A DNA stretch of 32,673 nucleotides. It comes from Spirochaetales bacterium. GTDB taxonomy: Bacteria; Spirochaetota; Spirochaetia; DSM-2461. Positions 2,639-16,945 of the stretch are shown piece after piece. The notes below the pieces were generated by a model, which saw only the letters and a program-made list of their open reading frames with translations, was not told the origin of the DNA and searched no databases. Each line of letters begins with the position of its first letter. The first letter of the stretch is position 1. The stretch covers positions 1 through 32,673 of the forward strand of contig JAFGXR010000053.1 of the NCBI GenBank assembly GCA_016936555.1. The letters are read 5' to 3'. The position numbers and the translations under genes are program-made.

Positions 2639-3823
2639 CTAAATACCGGTTCTTATTAATTTCGCCTCCTCGATAGCTTCAAGCAGCTCGATGCCCTTTC
2701 TGATTCCCTTTTCCGGTCGATTGTTCATTTCGGGCACACTGAAGAGATTTTCCAGAAACATGCAGGCCGCTCCATAGGCCACAGCCTGCTCCCCCTGGTT
2801 GGAGCAGTTGATAGAATAGGACATCTGATCCGGATAAGACCAGTTGTTACGGATTTCATGAGTTAACAGAACTTCAATTTCTTCCTTGTATTGCTCAATC
2901 TCGCCGCCGATGACTATATGGTTTATATTGAAAAAATTGATTATCAATGAGATATTCCGGGCCAGTTCACGGAATAGATCAGTCAGATCTTCCGGCTTGG
3001 TTTGAATATTTTCAATTTTTTCATCGGGAAGGGAGAACTGGCTGATGCTCGGTGCATCGCTGAATATGCTCTTGAACTCGCCTGCCGAGTGTTCCGGGCC
3101 ACTGTACACTTTTCCATTGACAACTATTCCGAATCCGATACCTATTCCCGAATAGAAGTTGTGATGATTTTCTACCTCTCTGAATTGGCCCAGCATGTAT
3201 AACATATTGTCCGGTCGATTGCACTTATTCGTGGTAAGTTCACCCCAGCAGCAGCAATTGGCATCATTTTCAATATATATGGGGACGGAAATTTTCGCTT
3301 TGGCCAGATTCTGGAAAGGATAGGACTCGCTTATGCTCATTGGATTCGATTTTTCAACGATACCTTCCTCGCTATTAATAATTCCGCACAAGCCCACGAC
3401 AATTCCGAGAAGGTTGAAGCTTTTTATAAAGGGATCAATGATCTGCAGTATTTCATTGACTATGTCGATCAGCTCTTTCTCGTCGAAATTGATTTTATCT
3501 TTATAGCTGAATATGATTTCGCCCTGAAGATTTATCAGTACGGCATTGAAGGTTTCGGTCTGTATTTCCATTCCCAGTATTGAACCGTAATTTATATTGA
3601 TGCAGAGGGGGACCGGCTTCCGCCCCCCCCGGGGGCTGGCGGTCCCCTCATCGAGAGCCTGGACTATACCCAGGTCTATAAGGCTCGAAACTATTTTCGT
3701 TACCGTGGATTTGTCCATTTGCAGCATCTCGGCTATACGGATTCTGCTTATTCCTTTGTTCAACCAGATGGACCGTAGAGCCTGAGACGCATTTATCTTA
3801 TTTAATTTGCTTTGTGTTGCCAT
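2639..3823 (-). CDS. ROK-family transcriptional regulator, copy 1
   Basis: A 394-residue NagC/XylR-type protein. Residues 10-55 form a winged helix-turn-helix, including AEMLQMDKSTVTKIVS. The remainder is a ROK sugar-kinase-like fold with the ENDAN motif at 185-189 and an HSAGEF segment at 245-250. The usual ROK zinc motif CxCGxxGC is absent: the expected region reads FSDAPSISQFS. Instead, three consecutive cysteines (190-192) directly follow ENDAN. Family members are repressors or activators of carbohydrate genes that respond to sugars. It is a close paralogue of the gene at 4009-5217, with 39 of the first 50 residues identical. The downstream glucanase suggests control of glucan or glucoside use, which is inference. 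Confidence 0.85.
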   Translation of the reverse strand: MATQSKLNKINASQALRSIWLNKGISRIRIAEMLQMDKSTVTKIVSSLIDLGIVQALDEGTASPRGGRKPVPLCININYGSILGMEIQTETFNAVLINLQGEIIFSYKDKINFDEKELIDIVNEILQIIDPFIKSFNLLGIVVGLCGIINSEEGIVEKSNPMSISESYPFQNLAKAKISVPIYIENDANCCCWGELTTNKCNRPDNMLYMLGQFREVENHHNFYSGIGIGFGIVVNGKVYSGPEHSAGEFKSIFSDAPSISQFSLPDEKIENIQTKPEDLTDLFRELARNISLIINFFNINHIVIGGEIEQYKEEIEVLLTHEIRNNWSYPDQMSYSINCSNQGEQAVAYGAACMFLENLFSVPEMNNRPEKGIRKGIELLEAIEEAKLIRTGI

Positions 3824-3880
3824 ATTTTCCCTGAGTATTGATATCGGCTAATTGAGTTGATAGGCGAAACCAACGTAAAT

Positions 3881-3909
3881 ATTTTCACACAGAAAAGTCC
3901 GGTAGTCAA
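3881..3909 (-). promoter_or_regulatory. Candidate promoter for ROK copy 1
   Basis: On the minus strand, TTGACT (3904-3909) is followed after 17 bases by GAAAAT (3881-3886). The -35 is good and the -10 is weak. The same TTGACT/17/GAAAAT arrangement occurs upstream of the chemotaxis gene at 5310-5338. A TTTTC/GAAAA inverted repeat (3882-3896) overlaps the -10. Confidence 0.35.
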
Positions 3910-4008
3910 CCTGTATCTGTCGATGGGGAAGTAAGATGACCTGCGGTTATTATCAGAGGATGCTTACGGGAGGTTCTTCCTCAGGAGAGAATAATTGGTG
4001 AGGATACT

Positions 4009-5217
4009 TCAGATGGGCGTGTAAGAGAAATCCGCTTCGTCCTGTTCTTCCGTATCGAGATCCTTTATGGATTCCAGCAATTCAATACCTTTAAGGAAGG
4101 ACGAGTTGTTGTTCTGGTTCATTTCCGGAACGCCGAAGAGGTTTTGGATAAACAGGCATGCCGCTCCGAAAGCGACGGCTTTTTCTCCCAGATTTGAATT
4201 GCGTACCGAATAGGTCATCTGATCGGGATGGAGCCAGTTTCTCTGGATTTCCTGTGAGAGCATCAGCTCAATCATATCTTTGTATTTTTCTATTTCGCCG
4301 CCAAGGACGACGTGGTTCAGATTGAAGAAATTCATCACCAGAGCTATATTCCTTGTCAGTTCCCTGAAAAGCACAGCCAGGTCTTCCGGTTTCTCCTGTA
4401 TTCCCTTAATGACTTCATCATCGAGAGAGAACTGACTGATTGCCGCCGTGTCGCTGAAAATGCTTTTAAATTCCCCTGCCGAGTATTCCGGGCCGCTGTA
4501 AACCTCGCCGTTCAATACAATTCCGAAACCGAAACCTATTCCCGAATAGTAGGTGTGGTGAGTTTCAACTTCACGGAATTCTCCCAGCATATAGAGCATA
4601 TTCTGGGGGCGGTTTAATCTGTTCGTCGTCAGTTCACCCCAGCAGCAGCAGTTGGCATCATTTTCTATGAATATGGGAACATCGAGCTTATCCTGTACCG
4701 CTTTTGTAAAGTGATAGTCTTTATAAATATTCAGAGGGTTTGATTTCCGGATAATCCCTTCATTGCTGTTTATAATTCCGCTCAAGCCGAGTACAATACC
4801 CAGAACGTCGTGCTTTTCCGCTTCGGGCAGAAGTTCTTCGAGGATATTCCAGAACACCTGTTCGACAGTAGACTCTCCGAAATCCACATCCCTGGAAGAA
4901 TCGAAAAGAATGGAACCGTCGAGATTGATAATGACGGCGTTATAGGAATCGGTCTGGATTTCTATGCCCAGAACACTTCCATAATCGCTGTTTATGCAGA
5001 GAGGAACAGGTTTTCTTCCGCCTTTTATCTTAATATCTTCCTCTTTCATTGTTTTGATGATACCGACGGAGAGGAGGTTGGAGACTATTTTCGTGACGGT
5101 GGATTTGTCCATCTGCAGGACTTTAGCGATTTGTATGCGACTAATTCCTTTATTCAACCAGATGCAACGCAGTACCTGGGATGTGTTAATTTTAAAAAGC
5201 TTGTTTTGAGTTGCCAT
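4009..5217 (-). CDS. ROK-family transcriptional regulator, copy 2
   Basis: A 402-residue ROK regulator with the same plan as its downstream neighbour: N-terminal winged HTH with AKVLQMDKSTVTKIVS, then a kinase-like ROK fold. It keeps ENDAN followed by CCCWGEL and likewise lacks the CxCGxxGC zinc motif. The C-terminal tail differs, being longer and acidic, and paralogue divergence is greatest there. The start is supported by a GGGG-containing SD-like sequence upstream and a good promoter at 5256-5284. It diverges from the chemotaxis receptor gene; the intervening region holds an 18-bp perfect palindrome. Tandem duplication is evident. Effector and targets are unknown. Confidence 0.85.
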   Translation of the reverse strand: MATQNKLFKINTSQVLRCIWLNKGISRIQIAKVLQMDKSTVTKIVSNLLSVGIIKTMKEEDIKIKGGRKPVPLCINSDYGSVLGIEIQTDSYNAVIINLDGSILFDSSRDVDFGESTVEQVFWNILEELLPEAEKHDVLGIVLGLSGIINSNEGIIRKSNPLNIYKDYHFTKAVQDKLDVPIFIENDANCCCWGELTTNRLNRPQNMLYMLGEFREVETHHTYYSGIGFGFGIVLNGEVYSGPEYSAGEFKSIFSDTAAISQFSLDDEVIKGIQEKPEDLAVLFRELTRNIALVMNFFNLNHVVLGGEIEKYKDMIELMLSQEIQRNWLHPDQMTYSVRNSNLGEKAVAFGAACLFIQNLFGVPEMNQNNNSSFLKGIELLESIKDLDTEEQDEADFSYTPI

Positions 5218-11055: not shown

Positions 11056-11080
11056 TTAATTTCTGTATAATCTGATATTT

Positions 11081-11114
11081 AGCCCCGCGATTGATTCCGC
11101 GGGGTTATTTTTTT
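11081..11114 (+). terminator. Rho-independent terminator of tpx
   Basis: A GC-rich 7-bp stem, CCCCGCG (11083-11089) and CGCGGGG (11098-11104), with an 8-base loop, is followed by TTATTTTTTT. It lies 26 bases past the tpx stop codon and isolates tpx from the next operon. Confidence 0.92.
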
Positions 11115-11130
11115 GCTTTATGTATATCGC

Positions 11131-11182
11131 AATGAAATAATAGTAATTATTATTTGCATTAATAATATCAATTAGTTATATT
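11131..11182 (+). promoter_or_regulatory. Promoter and AT-rich palindromic operator of the XRE-cobalamin gene
   Basis: TTGCAT (11154-11159) and TATATT (11177-11182) are 17 bases apart. A perfect 8-bp inverted repeat, AAATAATA (11135-11142) and TATTATTT (11148-11155), flanks the spacer GTAAT and continues as AATG/CATT with a one-base slip. The repeat abuts and slightly overlaps the -35. The -10 ends six bases before the ATG at 11189, so the predicted start point coincides with the start codon and the mRNA may be leaderless; no SD is present. Confidence 0.65.
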
Positions 11183-11188
11183 TGTGAT

Positions 11189-12076
11189 ATGAGAGAATCT
11201 ACTTTCGGTGAAAAACTAAGGGATGCCAGAAAAAAATCAGGTTTGACTCAGAAACAGCTGGGAGAGCTGACCGGAGCCGGTCAGGTCGTAATCGCCAACT
11301 ACGAGAGAGGAGCCCGGTTTCCCGGTGAGGAAATGCTGCGGAAACTGGCGGAAAGCCTTCAGGTCTCCCTCGATTATCTGTTGTCTGTCCCTTCTCTGAC
11401 AGGTACAGCTGCCGGTCCGGATTTCAGTCCGGAACATCTCTTCGATCTTCTCCTCGGAGAATCGGTCGCCCGGTGCTGGGATTATATCAGTCAGTGGAAG
11501 GACCGGGGAAAGCACAGCGCCCTGGATGTCTATTCCGGGCTTCTTATCCCCCTCCTTAAAAAGACCGGGGATCTCTGGTTTACCGGGGATATTTCAGTTC
11601 TCGACGAACATCTGATCAGCGGAAAGGTGAGGGAGCTGATCACCTTGACAGCGGCTCATGAAAAGGGATGGGATAATCCACCAGAGCCCGGTCTGAGCTG
11701 GATGGGGCTGTGCGCTCCCGGAGAAGAGCACGATCTGGTTCTGCTGATGACCGCCCGCCTTTTGCGCCTTAGGGGCTGGGATGTCAGATTCGCCGGGACG
11801 AAGATGCCGGTCGGTGACCTGATTGCGGCGGTGGAATTTCACAAACCGCTCGTTCTCTCGTTGTCTGTGACCATGGACTCTTTCCGGAGCGGTCTGGAGA
11901 CCTATCTCCATGTGCTATACAAAAACAGAAGCTATCCCTACGGGATTATTCTCGGAGGATCGGCCGTTAAGGAGAGGGATGTTCATGATTTCCCCGGAAT
12001 CATCGGAACCGCCGGCACTCTGGAGGAAGGAATATCTCTCGCGGAAAAATACGCAAATGATAAAAGGAGCTCTTGA
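11189..12076 (+). CDS. XRE-type DNA-binding protein fused to a CarH-like cobalamin-binding module
   Basis: A 295-residue cytoplasmic regulator. Residues 5-65 are an XRE/Cro-type helix-turn-helix (KSGLTQKQLGELTG, then VVIANYERGARFPG). Residues 82-165 form a helical cap domain containing W130-x9-E140-H141, the signature with which CarH photoreceptors cap the adenosyl group of coenzyme B12. Residues 170-290 form a Rossmann-like cobalamin-binding domain with GEEH at 178-181; His181 would be the lower cobalt ligand (His177 in CarH). In CarH light breaks the Co-C bond, the tetramer falls apart and DNA is released. MerR-type binding domains are the known partner; here it is XRE. The stop TGA directly abuts the next ATG, so it heads the RND operon. 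Light sensing is inferred. Confidence 0.85.
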   Translation: MRESTFGEKLRDARKKSGLTQKQLGELTGAGQVVIANYERGARFPGEEMLRKLAESLQVSLDYLLSVPSLTGTAAGPDFSPEHLFDLLLGESVARCWDYISQWKDRGKHSALDVYSGLLIPLLKKTGDLWFTGDISVLDEHLISGKVRELITLTAAHEKGWDNPPEPGLSWMGLCAPGEEHDLVLLMTARLLRLRGWDVRFAGTKMPVGDLIAAVEFHKPLVLSLSVTMDSFRSGLETYLHVLYKNRSYPYGIILGGSAVKERDVHDFPGIIGTAGTLEEGISLAEKYANDKRSS

Positions 12077-13156
12077 ATGAAAAAAGTAATTATCATCTTA
12101 ATGTCGGTTTTTATCTTTACGTCCTGCGGCCCTGACGATGCCGATCAGGTCACGTCATCGAGCTGGGATCAGGCCGGTGAATATATTCCCATAGCAGTGG
12201 AAGTCCTGGAGGTGACGGAAGGGAAACTGATCCCCTATGTCGAAGCTTCCGGCATTATCAAAGGGATAAGGGAAGCCTGGGTCGTTTCCGCAGCACAGGG
12301 GCAGATAACCTCTATGGATGTCGCCCTTGGCGGAGAAGTGGAAGAGGGACAGGTTCTCCTGACTGTTGAAAACGATCTTCAGAAACTGAACCGCGATCTG
12401 GCTCTCCAGCAGTATGAATCGACACGCCTCGATTTTCAGGCACTTGAAAGTTCCTACAAAAAAGGGGGCCTGTCCCGCAGTGATTACAATAGCGCCAGGA
12501 CGAGGCTTCTTCAGGCGGAGACATCGTGGCGCGCTGCGGAAAAAAGCTACGGCGACACTTTGCTCAAAGCTCCTTTTTCCGGGAACGTCGCCCAATTGGA
12601 CAGTTCGCTGGTCGCGGGAGCGACTCTTTCTCCCGGTACACCTGTGGCTCTCATTATTGACCGGTCATCGATGAAGATGGAGATCGCTCTCGGGGAGAGA
12701 CAGATAGGTCTTATCGAAAAAGGTCAGAAGGCTCTGCTGACTGTCTCCAGTTCCGGGTCAGCGTCTGTCGAGGCTGTCGTTGCCGCTATCGGCACAGGCA
12801 GCGAGAGCGCGACAGGGAGTTTTCCCGTCATTATCACCTGGAAAAGCAATATCGACGATACCATGCGATCCGGTTTGTCAGCCAAAGTGCTGATGGAAAA
12901 TACGGCGGAGGAGCCGCAGATCATCATTCCCTCTTCGGCGCTGATCGTCAGGAACAGAAAAGAGTCTGTTATTACGGCGGTGGACGGTAGGGCTGTCATA
13001 AAAGAAGTCGTCACCGGCGAATCTCTGGGGGGCAATACAGTTGTCAAAGAGGGGCTGGCTCCGGGAGAAAAACTGGTCGTCAGCGCTCTCTCTTCTCTGG
13101 GAGATAATTATCTCATAGAAACTTCCGAAATCGGAAAAACAGGAGACTGGAGATGA
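12077..13156 (+). CDS. RND efflux periplasmic adaptor lipoprotein (HlyD/AcrA type)
   Basis: A 359-residue membrane-fusion protein linking an inner-membrane RND pump to an outer-membrane channel. The signal carries lipobox FTSC with Cys17. The order is typical: a lipoyl-like half (VVSAAQGQITSMDVALGGEV), a short coiled-coil hairpin (about residues 95-160), the second lipoyl half (APFSGNVAQLDSSLVAGA), a beta-barrel and a membrane-proximal domain. AAGGAG lies just upstream of the ATG, which immediately follows the stop of the XRE-cobalamin gene. The end overlaps the pump gene by ATGA. No outer-membrane TolC-like partner is in the window. Confidence 0.92.
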   Translation: MKKVIIILMSVFIFTSCGPDDADQVTSSSWDQAGEYIPIAVEVLEVTEGKLIPYVEASGIIKGIREAWVVSAAQGQITSMDVALGGEVEEGQVLLTVENDLQKLNRDLALQQYESTRLDFQALESSYKKGGLSRSDYNSARTRLLQAETSWRAAEKSYGDTLLKAPFSGNVAQLDSSLVAGATLSPGTPVALIIDRSSMKMEIALGERQIGLIEKGQKALLTVSSSGSASVEAVVAAIGTGSESATGSFPVIITWKSNIDDTMRSGLSAKVLMENTAEEPQIIIPSSALIVRNRKESVITAVDGRAVIKEVVTGESLGGNTVVKEGLAPGEKLVVSALSSLGDNYLIETSEIGKTGDWR

Positions 13157-16100
13157 CACTGGGTACTTTTTCCGTTAGAAACGGAGTCCTTATTAATATT
13201 CTGCTGGTAACCCTTCTCATTCTGGGGGTGTTCAGTCTCAGAAGACTGCCTCAGGAGCAGTTTGCCGAGGTTCCCTTTTACTGGGCCAATATCGCTGTCC
13301 CCTTTCCCGGTGTCAGCGCCGGGGATGTGGAGCAGCTTATCTCTGTTCCCATAGAAAATGAAATGCAGGGCCTCGATGATGTGGATGAGATCCGTTCCGT
13401 TTCCAGCGAGGGGCTGAGTCTCGTCTCGGTCCGTTTCGAAAGCGATATCTCACCGGAGCGCTTCGATAAGCTCTTTCAGGATGTCCGGACAAGGTTCAGT
13501 CGCGTCCGCCTTCCCGAAGGGGCTCTGCAGGAGAATATCAGCTCTTTTTCCTCCAATGATTTCGCTCCGGTTATCGAAGTCGTTCTATCCGGAGACAGAG
13601 ACTACGCGACCCTGGTGGAAACAGCCGAAGCCATGGCTGACGAAATGTCCCGGATTAATGAAGTCTCCTCTGTGGAACTGGTCGGCGCCCGGGACAGACA
13701 GGTCGCCATCGTGATAGATCAGAACCGTCTTGACAGTCTGGGGCTGACTCTCGACAATGTCGTGCTGGCTCTTCAGGCCAGGAACCTTAATATTCCAGGC
13801 GGTACGGTCAGTACCGGTTCCCGGGATTATCTGGTCCGGACTGTGGGAAGCGTGGAAGGCGTGGACCAGTTCGGCGATGTTATAGTCAAACGGGGCAGAG
13901 ACGGAAGCGGCATCGTAAAAATCCGCGATGTGGCTTCTGTTATCAGGGAATACGAGGATGACGGGAGCGAAGCGAGGTTCAACGGGGACTCTTCGGTTTC
14001 GATACGCGTGGCCAAGATCCCCCGGGGTAATTCCGTGAAAATCGCCGAAGAGGTTAAGCGGATCAGCGCCGAATGGGAGAACAGACTCACCGACGACATC
14101 AAAGTGACTCTTCTCAATGATTCGACCGTTCAGATCAGGGCCAGTCTCGACGTTCTGCTCAGCAACGCTCTTTTCGGGCTCCTTCTTCTGGTTCTCATAC
14201 TCTTCTTCTTCGTGGGATTCAGAAATGCCATGATGACGGCTCTGGGAATTCCCCTCACTTTCGCCATAACCTTTATGATTCTCGATATCATGGGAGAGAC
14301 ATTCAACTCCAACACCCTGTTCGGACTTGTCCTTGTTCTGGGTCTTATCGTGGACCACGCCATCGTCATTATCGAAAACAGCTTCCGCCTTCAGCAGGAG
14401 GGGCTTTCCCGCCATGAAGCGGCCATAAAAGGAACCGACCAGGTTGTTTTCCCCGTTATCGCCGCCACGGCTACGACGGTAGCGGCTTTCCTTCCCCTCA
14501 TGATTCTCCCCGGCACGATCGGGAAATTCCTGCGGGTCATTCCCCTGACAGTTTCCATCGCCCTGATCGCCAGTACTTTCGAGGCTCTCGTTTTCATTCC
14601 CTCCCATTATGCCGACTGGCCGGGGGGAAAGAAAATCCGGAAGGAAGGGAGATTTTTCGATCCCTTCAAAAGGGCTTACAGCCGTCTCCTCTCCAGACTT
14701 TATAAACGGAAAGGCCTATCTGTCGCCGGGGCCTTCATCATCATGTTCGGGCTTCTGGGGCTGGCCGGTGCCTTGAATATCGATCTGTTCAGCGCCGAGG
14801 ACTACACTTATTTCACCATCGATATCGAAATGCCTGCCGGAACAACCCGGGACAGGACGGACCGTGTCGTCCGGCAGTACGAGGAGCTCCTTTTTCCCCT
14901 GACGGGCAACGGAGAAGTTGTTTCCGTCAAAACCTCCATCGGCTTTCTCTCCTCGGGAGACGGCAATACGAGCCAGGGTAATATCGCCCAGATTCTGGTC
15001 GATCTGACGGAGCAGGATCAGGGGCGGGTCCGGTCCATCAGCGCCATTATGGGCGATGTCCGGGAAATGACCCGCCTTATTCCGGGACCTGAAAATGTCT
15101 TCTTCAGAAAAGCGGTCAACGGCCCCCCCCAGTCCGCGCCTGTCAGCTTTCAGCTCTTCGGCGATAATCTGGAGGGATTGAAAACCGTGTCGGAGAGCAT
15201 AACCGACAGGCTCAGATCCTATCCGGAACTTCTCAACATCGAAGATGATTTCAGCGGCGGATCGCCGGAGCTCCGGGTTATTGTCAATGAGGAACGGGCG
15301 GCGGCTTACGGGCTGAGCGTTCTGTCCGTCGGCCAGTATATCCGTGCCGCCGTGGACGGGATTCAGGCCACGACCTTTGTGGAGGACAATCAGTCCATCG
15401 ATGTCATCGTCCGTTATGACAGAGCGGGCCGGTTCCGGGCTGACCAGCTCGAACAGCTTCTCATTCCATCTCCCGTCGGAAGGAAAGTCCCCTTCAGCGC
15501 CGTTGCGAAAATCGAGGAAGCAACGTCCCTTTCCACCATTCAGCGCGTCGATGGAAAGCGGGTCGTATCCATTTCCGCCGGGGCCTATTCCAATGAATCG
15601 GTTCCGGATATTAATCAAGATATCGAAGAGCTGGTCGCCGCATATGCCGTATCCTATCCCGATCAGATCCTGGTGACGGGGGGTGAATTCGCCGATTTCG
15701 CAAATCTGCTGTTCGATATTCTCAGAATCTTTCTCATCGGAGTCTTTCTCATCTATCTGATTCTGGGGACGCAGTTCAAGTCCTATACGCAGCCCTTTCT
15801 CATTCTGCTCTCAGTGCCCATGGCTTTTGCGGGAATCATTCTCTATCTCTTCGTCAGCGGGACGCCCTTCAGCACGACTGTCCTCTATGCAGGGGTCGCT
15901 CTGGCTGGAATCGCCGTAAACGACGCCATTGTTCTGATCAGCTTTATCAACGAATTGCGGGAATCGGGCATGTCTGTGGCCGAGGCGGTCAAAGAGGCCG
16001 CGGCGACGAGACTGAGGCCCATCCTGCTGACGTCCCTGACCACTATCGCCGGTCTTCTCCCCACGGCTATTGGGATAGGCGGAGTGTCCGTGGTCTGGCA

Positions 16101-16218
16101 GCCTATGGCGAGTACAATAATTTTCGGTCTCTTATTCAGTACGTTGACCGCTCTGATCCTGATTCCCCTGATGTACGGCCTTTTATACGGGCGGAAGGAA
16201 AAACATGCAGAGATATAA
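13153..16218 (+). CDS. RND-family efflux permease (AcrB/MexB-like)
   Basis: A 1021-residue proton-driven efflux pump of the inner membrane, full length for the HAE family. TM1 is at about 10-30, followed by a large periplasmic loop, TM2-6 (about 330-490), a second periplasmic loop and TM7-12 (about 860-1015). In TM4 the proton-relay region reads GLIVDHAIVIIEN: Asp401 is kept, but the second Asp of AcrB (D408) is His402. TM10 reads GIAVNDAIVLI and TM11 RLRPILLTSLTTIAGLLP, as expected. It overlaps the adaptor by four bases and the next gene by fourteen. Substrate cannot be deduced; drugs, bile-like compounds or lipids are typical. Confidence 0.94.
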   Translation: MTLGTFSVRNGVLINILLVTLLILGVFSLRRLPQEQFAEVPFYWANIAVPFPGVSAGDVEQLISVPIENEMQGLDDVDEIRSVSSEGLSLVSVRFESDISPERFDKLFQDVRTRFSRVRLPEGALQENISSFSSNDFAPVIEVVLSGDRDYATLVETAEAMADEMSRINEVSSVELVGARDRQVAIVIDQNRLDSLGLTLDNVVLALQARNLNIPGGTVSTGSRDYLVRTVGSVEGVDQFGDVIVKRGRDGSGIVKIRDVASVIREYEDDGSEARFNGDSSVSIRVAKIPRGNSVKIAEEVKRISAEWENRLTDDIKVTLLNDSTVQIRASLDVLLSNALFGLLLLVLILFFFVGFRNAMMTALGIPLTFAITFMILDIMGETFNSNTLFGLVLVLGLIVDHAIVIIENSFRLQQEGLSRHEAAIKGTDQVVFPVIAATATTVAAFLPLMILPGTIGKFLRVIPLTVSIALIASTFEALVFIPSHYADWPGGKKIRKEGRFFDPFKRAYSRLLSRLYKRKGLSVAGAFIIMFGLLGLAGALNIDLFSAEDYTYFTIDIEMPAGTTRDRTDRVVRQYEELLFPLTGNGEVVSVKTSIGFLSSGDGNTSQGNIAQILVDLTEQDQGRVRSISAIMGDVREMTRLIPGPENVFFRKAVNGPPQSAPVSFQLFGDNLEGLKTVSESITDRLRSYPELLNIEDDFSGGSPELRVIVNEERAAAYGLSVLSVGQYIRAAVDGIQATTFVEDNQSIDVIVRYDRAGRFRADQLEQLLIPSPVGRKVPFSAVAKIEEATSLSTIQRVDGKRVVSISAGAYSNESVPDINQDIEELVAAYAVSYPDQILVTGGEFADFANLLFDILRIFLIGVFLIYLILGTQFKSYTQPFLILLSVPMAFAGIILYLFVSGTPFSTTVLYAGVALAGIAVNDAIVLISFINELRESGMSVAEAVKEAAATRLRPILLTSLTTIAGLLPTAIGIGGVSVVWQPMASTIIFGLLFSTLTALILIPLMYGLLYGRKEKHAEI

Positions 16219-16945
16219 AGCGGTCCTGACAGTATTTATTCTCTTATTTCTGTCCTCCGGGCTCTTCGCCATGACGGCCTTAGAGGCCCGGAGAAAATAC
16301 GATGGAATTATGTCATCCTGGATCGAAGGCCGCCGGAACGATCTTCAGGCGCTGGCGGAGTTCGGAAATCTCGAAAGGGAACTGGATTCCCTGGGCGACT
16401 CTGTTCAGAAGACGTACTGGATCGCCCGGGTCAGTCTCGCCGTCGGCCAGATCCGGTACTACCGGGACGAGGAGGAGCTCTCTCTCGATGCCCTGGAGAA
16501 AAGCAGGGACCTGGCGGGAGAGGCTGCCGCGGGGGGCGCCGGCGCCGGTGCCTGGAGAATCCAGTCCGAAGCGGGCAGCCTTATCATGATTCAGAAGGGC
16601 GTGGGGTATATCATCACCCATTCCGGTAGGGTTCAGGAACAGGCAGAGAAGGCTCTGTCCCTGGATAGCGGAAACGTCAGAGCGGCGCTTATCGTGGCTC
16701 AGGGGCTGATAAACGCGCCCGCTCTTTTCGGGGGAAACAGGAGAAAGGGACTTGCCGATCTGGAAGCTCTGAGCCTCAGAACCGGGCTCTCCCCCGAGGA
16801 ACGGTTTTTCGTCCTTATGGCTCTGGGCGAAATTTTTGCAAGGGATAAGGAAGGGGAAAAAGCTCTGGGATACTTCAGGAAGATTCTGGAATCCTATCCT
16901 CAAAACAGTCTGGCAAAAATGAGAATTGACAGGATGGCCCGCTGA
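16205..16945 (+). CDS. Exported TPR-like helical protein of the RND operon
   Basis: A 246-residue protein with an N-terminal signal peptide (about 1-22, ending LSSGLFA). The rest is helical, with a C-terminal TPR-like repeat (EERFFVLMALGEIFARDKEGEKALGYFRKIL) and an LFGGNRRKG loop that recalls TPR proteins of the TatT type associated with transport systems. It starts inside the pump gene, so it is translationally coupled. A role as a periplasmic accessory of the RND pump is inferred. I recognise no enzymatic motif. Confidence 0.65.
   Translation: MQRYKAVLTVFILLFLSSGLFAMTALEARRKYDGIMSSWIEGRRNDLQALAEFGNLERELDSLGDSVQKTYWIARVSLAVGQIRYYRDEEELSLDALEKSRDLAGEAAAGGAGAGAWRIQSEAGSLIMIQKGVGYIITHSGRVQEQAEKALSLDSGNVRAALIVAQGLINAPALFGGNRRKGLADLEALSLRTGLSPEERFFVLMALGEIFARDKEGEKALGYFRKILESYPQNSLAKMRIDRMAR

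Follow-up and report, generated by a model that had tools for sequence, protein, structure and literature searches.

The window, by which we mean the whole 32,673-base stretch of DNA analysed here, contains a gene that probably encodes an adenosylcobalamin (AdoCbl)-dependent, light-relieved repressor of its own RND-pump operon, in which a B12 module is joined to an XRE DNA-binding domain (Table 1). A sequence-only reading had proposed a CarH-like regulator of this kind, and every part of that interpretation that can be tested computationally, namely the domains, the pocket, the fold, the adenosyltransferases, the operator and the neighbouring genes, agrees with the analysis below and supports it. 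From these we infer AdoCbl binding, the response to light, a change of oligomeric state and the direction of regulation.

Domain architecture and cobalamin pocket

Three Pfam domains were found in the window protein, all above the curated cut-offs: HTH_3 at residues 10-64 (E = 9e-13; 48 bits against a cut-off of 23), B12-binding_2 at residues 103-144 (E = 3.5e-6) and B12-binding at residues 173-260 (E = 5e-8). Together with the open reading frame and the residue positions, these matches confirm the architecture read from the sequence, an XRE helix-turn-helix followed by a Wx9EH motif and a GEEH containing His181. They also agree with the proposal of a non-MerR DNA-binding fold, as Pfam gives no MerR match in this protein and HTH_3/XRE instead.

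Table 1. Features of the XRE-CBD gene, its promoter and the adjoining pump operon
Feature	Position	Strand	Evidence and remarks
Gene of the predicted XRE-CBD repressor, 295 aa	11189..12076	+	ORF; Pfam HTH_3, B12-binding_2 and B12-binding; AlphaFold pLDDT 92.2, pTM 0.81
XRE / HTH_3 type of DNA-binding domain (residues 10-64), with the recognition helix at ~32-39 (QVVIANYE)	11216..11380	+	Pfam; model helices 6-16, 21-28, 32-39, 47-56, 61-65
Four-helix-bundle B12 cap, residues 81-156	11429..11656	+	B12-binding_2 at 103-144; helices 81-90, 93-107, 111-131, 137-156
W130, paired with CarH W131 (adenosyl-group cap)	11576..11578	+	Alignment; W in 56/56
F131, where CarH has His132 as upper ligand in the light state	11579..11581	+	Alignment; His in 0/56 sequences; His132 function as given in PMC10442372
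E140-H141 (Wx9EH motif)	11606..11611	+	55/56 each
Rossmann-type B12-binding domain, residues 173-260	11705..11968	+	Pfam; model resembles CarH and photocobilin domains
H181, predicted lower cobalt ligand (CarH H177)	11729..11731	+	Alignment; 56/56
Terminator-like hairpin belonging to the redoxin gene upstream	11080..11107	+	
Second, weaker operator candidate TATATCGCAATGAAATA	11123..11139	.	41 bp upstream of the first; second-best window site with the clade matrix
-35 box TTGCAT	11154..11159	+	17 bp before TATATT; in the consensus scan the frame is shifted by one base, to 11153
Predicted operator AATATCAATTAGTTATA, 17-bp palindrome, TATAAC-N5-GTTATA type	11164..11180	.	Top site of 32,673 bases, even with a matrix excluding it
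-10 box TATATT, overlapping the operator	11177..11182	+	ATG 7 nt downstream
RND efflux periplasmic adaptor	12077..13156	+	ATG abuts the regulator stop codon; TIGR01730 144 bits over cut-off; Pfam HlyD_3
RND efflux permease (AcrB family)	13153..16218	+	Pfam ACR_tran 639 bits
246-aa protein	16205..16945	+	After the pump also in L037 and L038 (neighbour cluster c12); weak TPR matches below cut-off

In a phmmer alignment to Thermus CarH (5c8a/5c8d), W130, E140, H141 and H181 pair with W131, E141, H142 and H177, which bears out the equivalences claimed from the sequence. The SignatureFinder signature of light-responsive B12 domains, GxxW / EH / GxxH / GxxxP (PMC11796333), is complete in the window protein (G127-W130, E140-H141, G178-H181 and G203-P207). 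The B12 motif ExHx2G...SxV/T...GG is likewise found with the right spacings (E179-x-H181, S226-x-T228, G256-G257); the glycine of ExHxxG is valine (V184) here and in 10 further sequences among the 56 compared, a departure that counts against the AdoCbl reading. Judged from the conservation across these 56 sequences, the match of the pocket residues is more than chance. The window protein is not a member of CarH, because it has no MerR domain, reaches only 41.6 bits against the NCBIfam CarH equivalog NF052513, far under the cut-off of 400, and lacks His132. A biliverdin-binding globin-like domain behind the B12 domain is absent as well; the chain is complete at residue 295, and the Rossmann domain is its last part.

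A confident AlphaFold model, for which 38 family members were aligned, has a CarH/photocobilin-like fold, in agreement with the sequence-only reading. Its best match is the photocobilin 8j2w (model residues 76-294; Z 24.0, with 204 residues superposed at 2.4 A), and its C-terminal part also matches CtMerR (8jbt, Z 21.9) and CarH (5c8e, Z 19.4). In the model, W130 lies at the end of helix 111-131, E140-H141 at the start of helix 137-156 and H181 in the loop behind strand 170-175, and these residues are thereby predicted to occupy the expected cap and lower-ligand places of the cobalamin pocket. The charge pair at positions 180/205, which corresponds to the R176-D201 dimer contact of CarH, covaries as expected (E-K, K-D; shuffle p 0.009, kinship ignored), which may be taken as a hint.

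Structures of MetH also match the model (9cbo, Z 21.8; 1bmt, Z 21.5), and the fold by itself therefore leaves the function unsettled. A B12 domain with this common fold could instead report the cobalt oxidation state or the level of a methyl-corrinoid and control efflux under oxidative stress, to which efflux and lipid genes would be suited; the partial similarity to the methyltransferase corrinoid proteins MtgC and MtbC points the same way. We consider such a redox or corrinoid sensor improbable, since MetH is without the Wx9EH adenosyl cap (PMC8156234), and those corrinoid proteins of the source genome that were included in the tree described below also lack the cap and form a separate clade there.

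Distribution and phylogeny of the XRE-CBD family

The XRE-CBD fusion forms one clade in Spirochaetota and Clostridia. Genome contigs queried with an alignment yielded 47 loci, against 0 in an earlier scan that used a single protein as query, and across the 395 genomes of the class we counted about 36 full-length copies (rows covering both domains), spread over 34 genomes. Relatives in the family and class of the source have the whole architecture in common at 24-81% identity. A scan of named genomes located further XRE-CBD proteins in Spirochaetota and in many Clostridia, the latter including Clostridium tetanomorphum, C. tagluense, C. bowmanii, Fusibacter bizertensis, Natronincola peptidivorans and Thermohalobacter berrensis. 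The viral contigs searched hold no relatives with both domains, and the plasmids searched no full-length relatives. In a tree of B12 domains, 26 XRE-CBD rows fall on one side of a branch with a support of 91, and the MerR type, corrinoid proteins and other B12-domain proteins lie outside it. By these comparisons, the window protein is a member of a widespread clade and not an oddity. The earlier remark that no XRE-type member has been characterised holds for the open literature that we searched: the SignatureFinder study mentions HTH fusions of B12 domains only generically (PMC11796333), and in a 2012 survey of proteobacteria, 35 of the 37 transcription factors that contain a B12 domain were of the MerR type.

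Among 56 non-identical sequences (54 XRE-CBD and 2 MerR-CBD; identity to the window protein down to 23%), W130 and H181 are invariant, while E140 and H141 occur in 55 each. The Wx9EH motif, the lower His and the complete light-responsive signature thus vary hardly at all between members from two phyla, and the cap and the lower ligand are under purifying selection. The exception with regard to E140 and H141 is L095 (L095:8989-9912), an XRE-CBD protein in which E140-H141 is changed to A-M and which, from these substitutions, is probably a B12-independent derivative, in parallel to CarA. Such a protein, along with PmlR2 (PMC9758184) and CarA (PMC8156234), sets a precedent for regulators that need no B12 and keep the fold only for dimerisation or protein-protein contact, like CarA or class II LitR. 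For the window protein, whose pocket is intact and composed of residues nearly invariant in the family, we regard this explanation as highly improbable.

Further arrangements of B12-domain genes were observed in these genomes. In G018 (contig C207, L041), convergent genes about 2 kb apart encode an XRE-CBD and a MerR-CBD regulator, so that both DNA-binding solutions could be compared directly within one cell. In L082, another B12-domain protein, of 219 aa, is encoded divergently from the XRE-CBD gene. A second B12 protein with the full signature, of 389 aa (LWENGRISVAEEH, NEYHEI; L003:1069-2238 (-); contig C7 of the source genome), has an N-terminal segment of 175 residues that matches no Pfam family, and the gene on contig C7 has no match to the operator described below. 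In L003, it stands just before the gene of a GGDEF diguanylate cyclase (149-1069, -), near a 2-thiouracil desulfurase-DUF1722 gene; the 389-aa protein and the cyclase are a possible light-controlled c-di-GMP pair.

Predicted operator, pump operon and candidate regulon

A de novo motif search in the 120 bp upstream of 49 XRE-CBD genes recovered the palindrome TATCACA-aat-TGTGATA, and XRE-CBD promoters hold the 17-bp palindrome TATCACAaatTGTGATA. The log-likelihood of the motif is 140 on 38 less redundant loci, compared with 21-34 in 12 dinucleotide-shuffled sets. Scores of at least 13 occur in 27 of the 49 XRE-CBD upstream regions versus 17 of 454 other genes, and several of these 17 sites are in fasciclin-sortase or chemotaxis-receptor promoters adjoining the regulator. 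In held-out loci where the regulator stands second behind a fasciclin gene, the site precedes the fasciclin gene in 7 of 8 cases (p <= 0.02); other held-out sites precede the lipocalin gene of L044, at a distance of 5 kb, and the PlsY gene of L040. Divergent relatives (L052, L053 and L093) carry one copy of the site facing each gene. Within seven new genomes, the test is passed at p = 0.005 by L142, whose site stands at precisely -25, and by L136, and L144 is marginal; some GC-rich members from these genomes gave no recognisable operator. At the MerR-type locus L056, no site was found before the lipocalin/PlsY-type genes tested. The sequence evidence for a palindromic operator of its own, as predicted here for the XRE-CBD family, is strong.

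In the clade of the window protein, the palindrome is of the TATAAC-N5-GTTATA type and lies at -25/-26 in 8 of 9 family members, as it does in a held-out member. The window copy scores 8.8 bits with the general matrix, weaker than most, and the layout of -35 box, operator and -10 box recurs upstream of the relatives' genes. As the ATG follows so closely on the -10 box, the regulator mRNA is probably leaderless. The adaptor gene begins immediately behind the regulator stop codon and the permease gene comes next, so that one operator can govern the regulator and the pump together. An AT-rich near-palindrome, AAATAATAGTAATTATTATTT (11135-11155), was also considered as the operator and rejected, as it misfits the family motif; it lies just upstream of the -35 box and is partly conserved in L037 and L040. 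Elsewhere in the window, two ROK-family repressor genes stand in tandem (2639-5217, -).

When the TATAAC-N5-GTTATA pattern was searched genome-wide in G000 with one mismatch, it gave 8 matches against 14 for the reversed-pattern control, and the other matches fall mostly within coding sequence. Because the matches are below the control, the whole regulon cannot be called, and we kept only a site conserved in two genomes at the same promoter position; on this comparison, only conserved, promoter-placed copies of the operator are informative. This site, TATAACGATATGTAATA, lies 49 nt upstream of an 81-aa gene in the source genome (contig C61) and in a congener. Homologues of the 81-aa gene adjoin XRE-CBD genes (L053:122-373 and L067:9933-10184, oriented loci). 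The ~81-83 aa proteins (W-x-GRG-x2-K; L119:1223-1528 (-), L118) have no Pfam match, and the family is a probable member of the regulon.

Throughout the family, XRE-CBD genes neighbour genes for RND pumps, class-II photolyase, lipocalin, DUF1295, PlsY and DegV-Dak2, and further for 2-thiouracil desulfurase-DUF1722, fasciclin and chemotaxis receptors. At L056, genes for lipocalin, DegV-Dak2, DUF1295 and PlsY likewise come after the MerR-type gene. In L129 and L130, fasciclin-like genes run divergently from the MerR-type gene; they were identified by their sequence similarity to the fasciclin of L071, which Pfam confirms. Comparable genes belong to known light regulons: PhrB belongs to the class II LitR regulons of Pseudomonas putida (PMC9758184), phrB is under LitR/LdrP in Thermus, and the carotenoid operon of C. 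glutamicum is surrounded by RND exporter, lipocalin and photolyase genes (PMC5401885). In L077, L084, L087, L088, L090 and L091, from Clostridium and its relatives, the XRE-CBD gene and a gene for a methyl-accepting chemotaxis receptor are arranged divergently, and several of the gaps between them contain operator-like sites; a chemotaxis response set by light is possible in these bacteria.

Photolyase is encoded in 17 of 30 XRE-CBD genomes versus 78 of 363 others (Fisher p=7e-5; kinship ignored, four taxonomic families), and in 7 of those 17 it lies within 7 kb of the XRE-CBD gene, 0.06 being expected. No photolyase gene was found in the source genome (95% complete) or in three congeners, and the link to light thus rests on relatives. 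The source genome has no MerR-type CarH, and it encodes two types of cobalamin adenosyltransferase, so AdoCbl should be available.

The same pocket evidence would fit a sensor of B12 sufficiency, for which AdoCbl is a co-repressor, its concentration the signal and photolysis incidental. Many members come from anaerobic sediments or gut-like Clostridia, and the source genome has several B12-dependent proteins next to its adenosyltransferases and no photolyase. Nevertheless, the genes found around the family are those of photolyase, lipocalin, fasciclin, RND pumps and lipid metabolism, not of B12 transport or synthesis, and the association with photolyase is strong. Moreover, the full Wx9EH cap marks tested light-responsive domains, and the signature-less HaAI-2E bound neither AdoCbl nor MeCbl (PMC11796333). 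These observations make B12 sufficiency an unlikely signal.

Proposed mechanism and comparison with known systems

For the preferred reading, a light-relieved repressor, we propose that in the dark AdoCbl, in base-off/His-on form, would be enclosed by the four-helix cap (W130, E140, H141) on one side and the Rossmann domain on the other, with H181 beneath the cobalt, and would keep the B12 domains as a head-to-tail dimer or larger assembly. The assembly would pair two XRE domains on the palindrome at 11164-11180 and thereby block the promoter of the regulator and the RND pump. Light would break the Co-C bond, the adenosyl group would depart, the E-H helix would move and the assembly would dissociate; the operon would then be expressed within a response to light or photo-oxidative stress. 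XRE domains bind palindromes as dimers. The sequence-only reading had asked how XRE dimers might couple disassembly to DNA release, and dark dimerisation of the B12 domains that pairs the XRE domains could be a simple candidate answer. Many XRE-CBD hosts are known anaerobes with perhaps limited exposure to light, and, by analogy to the CarH photocycle with its need for O2, this may count against the light reading.

Thermus CarH needs His132 for bis-His ligation, most of the H132A protein being tetrameric after light, and O2 is required to complete its photocycle (PMC10442372). As the XRE-CBD proteins have no equivalent of His132, this mechanism is not transferable to them. CtMerR has an Arg at this position, yet is converted from tetramer to monomer in light via a reoriented Glu and water (PMC11796333), and the light structure of the photocobilin SasPcob is water-ligated and monomeric (PMC10979010). 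With Phe at residue 131, the light state of XRE-CBD should, by analogy, be water-ligated and similar to that of CtMerR and SasPcob.

More tentatively, and at slightly less than even chances in our estimate, XRE-CBD may constitute a second family of B12 light repressors that arose independently and is spread mainly in anaerobes, without His132 or a bis-His light state completed by O2. In spirochaetes, XRE-CBD and MerR-type CarH would control overlapping targets through a common sensor but through unlike DNA-binding folds and operators. Already on the preferred reading, the B12 photosensor would be a portable module, attached by evolution to a quite different DNA-binding fold, and B12 light sensing would extend to Clostridia and spirochaetes, where the O2-dependent photocycle of CarH may not apply. 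In bacteria not considered light-sensing, RND pumps, fasciclins, lipocalins and lipid genes would come under the light response predicted here. A defined predicted operator, regulon and negative controls are available to probe the coupling, and a small repressor that responds to green light and recognises an ordinary palindrome would be useful for optogenetics.

CarH and class I LitR (Thermus, Myxococcus, Bacillus) have the Wx9EH cap, the lower His and the four-helix plus Rossmann module in common with the window protein. Both kinds of regulator adjoin their own light-type target genes, which for XRE-CBD are predicted targets, and in related spirochaetes (L056, L129, L130) CarH/LitR flanks a gene set that overlaps that of XRE-CBD. 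However, CarH/LitR proteins carry a MerR domain, with His132 in Thermus CarH, whereas the window protein carries XRE and no His132; their operator consists of 11-bp direct repeats in place of the 17-bp palindrome predicted by de novo search, and their B12 domains form a clade separate from XRE-CBD. CtMerR of Chloracidobacterium (8JBS/8JBT) resembles the window protein in its complete signature, the lack of His at position 132 and its close fold, but is of the MerR type; it is dissociated by light, and its crystal comprises the B12 domain only. The photocobilins SasPcob and AbDPcob share the W/EH/ExH motifs and give the best match to the B12 module, but they carry a C-terminal biliverdin-binding globin-like domain, whereas the output of the window protein is a DNA-binding domain. 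Finally, Xre/CI-type phage repressors (P22 C2, RstR, ICEBs1 ImmR) have the HTH fold, a palindrome near the -10 box and the layout of autoregulation in common with the window protein, but end in a CI dimerisation/peptidase domain where the window protein ends in a B12 domain.
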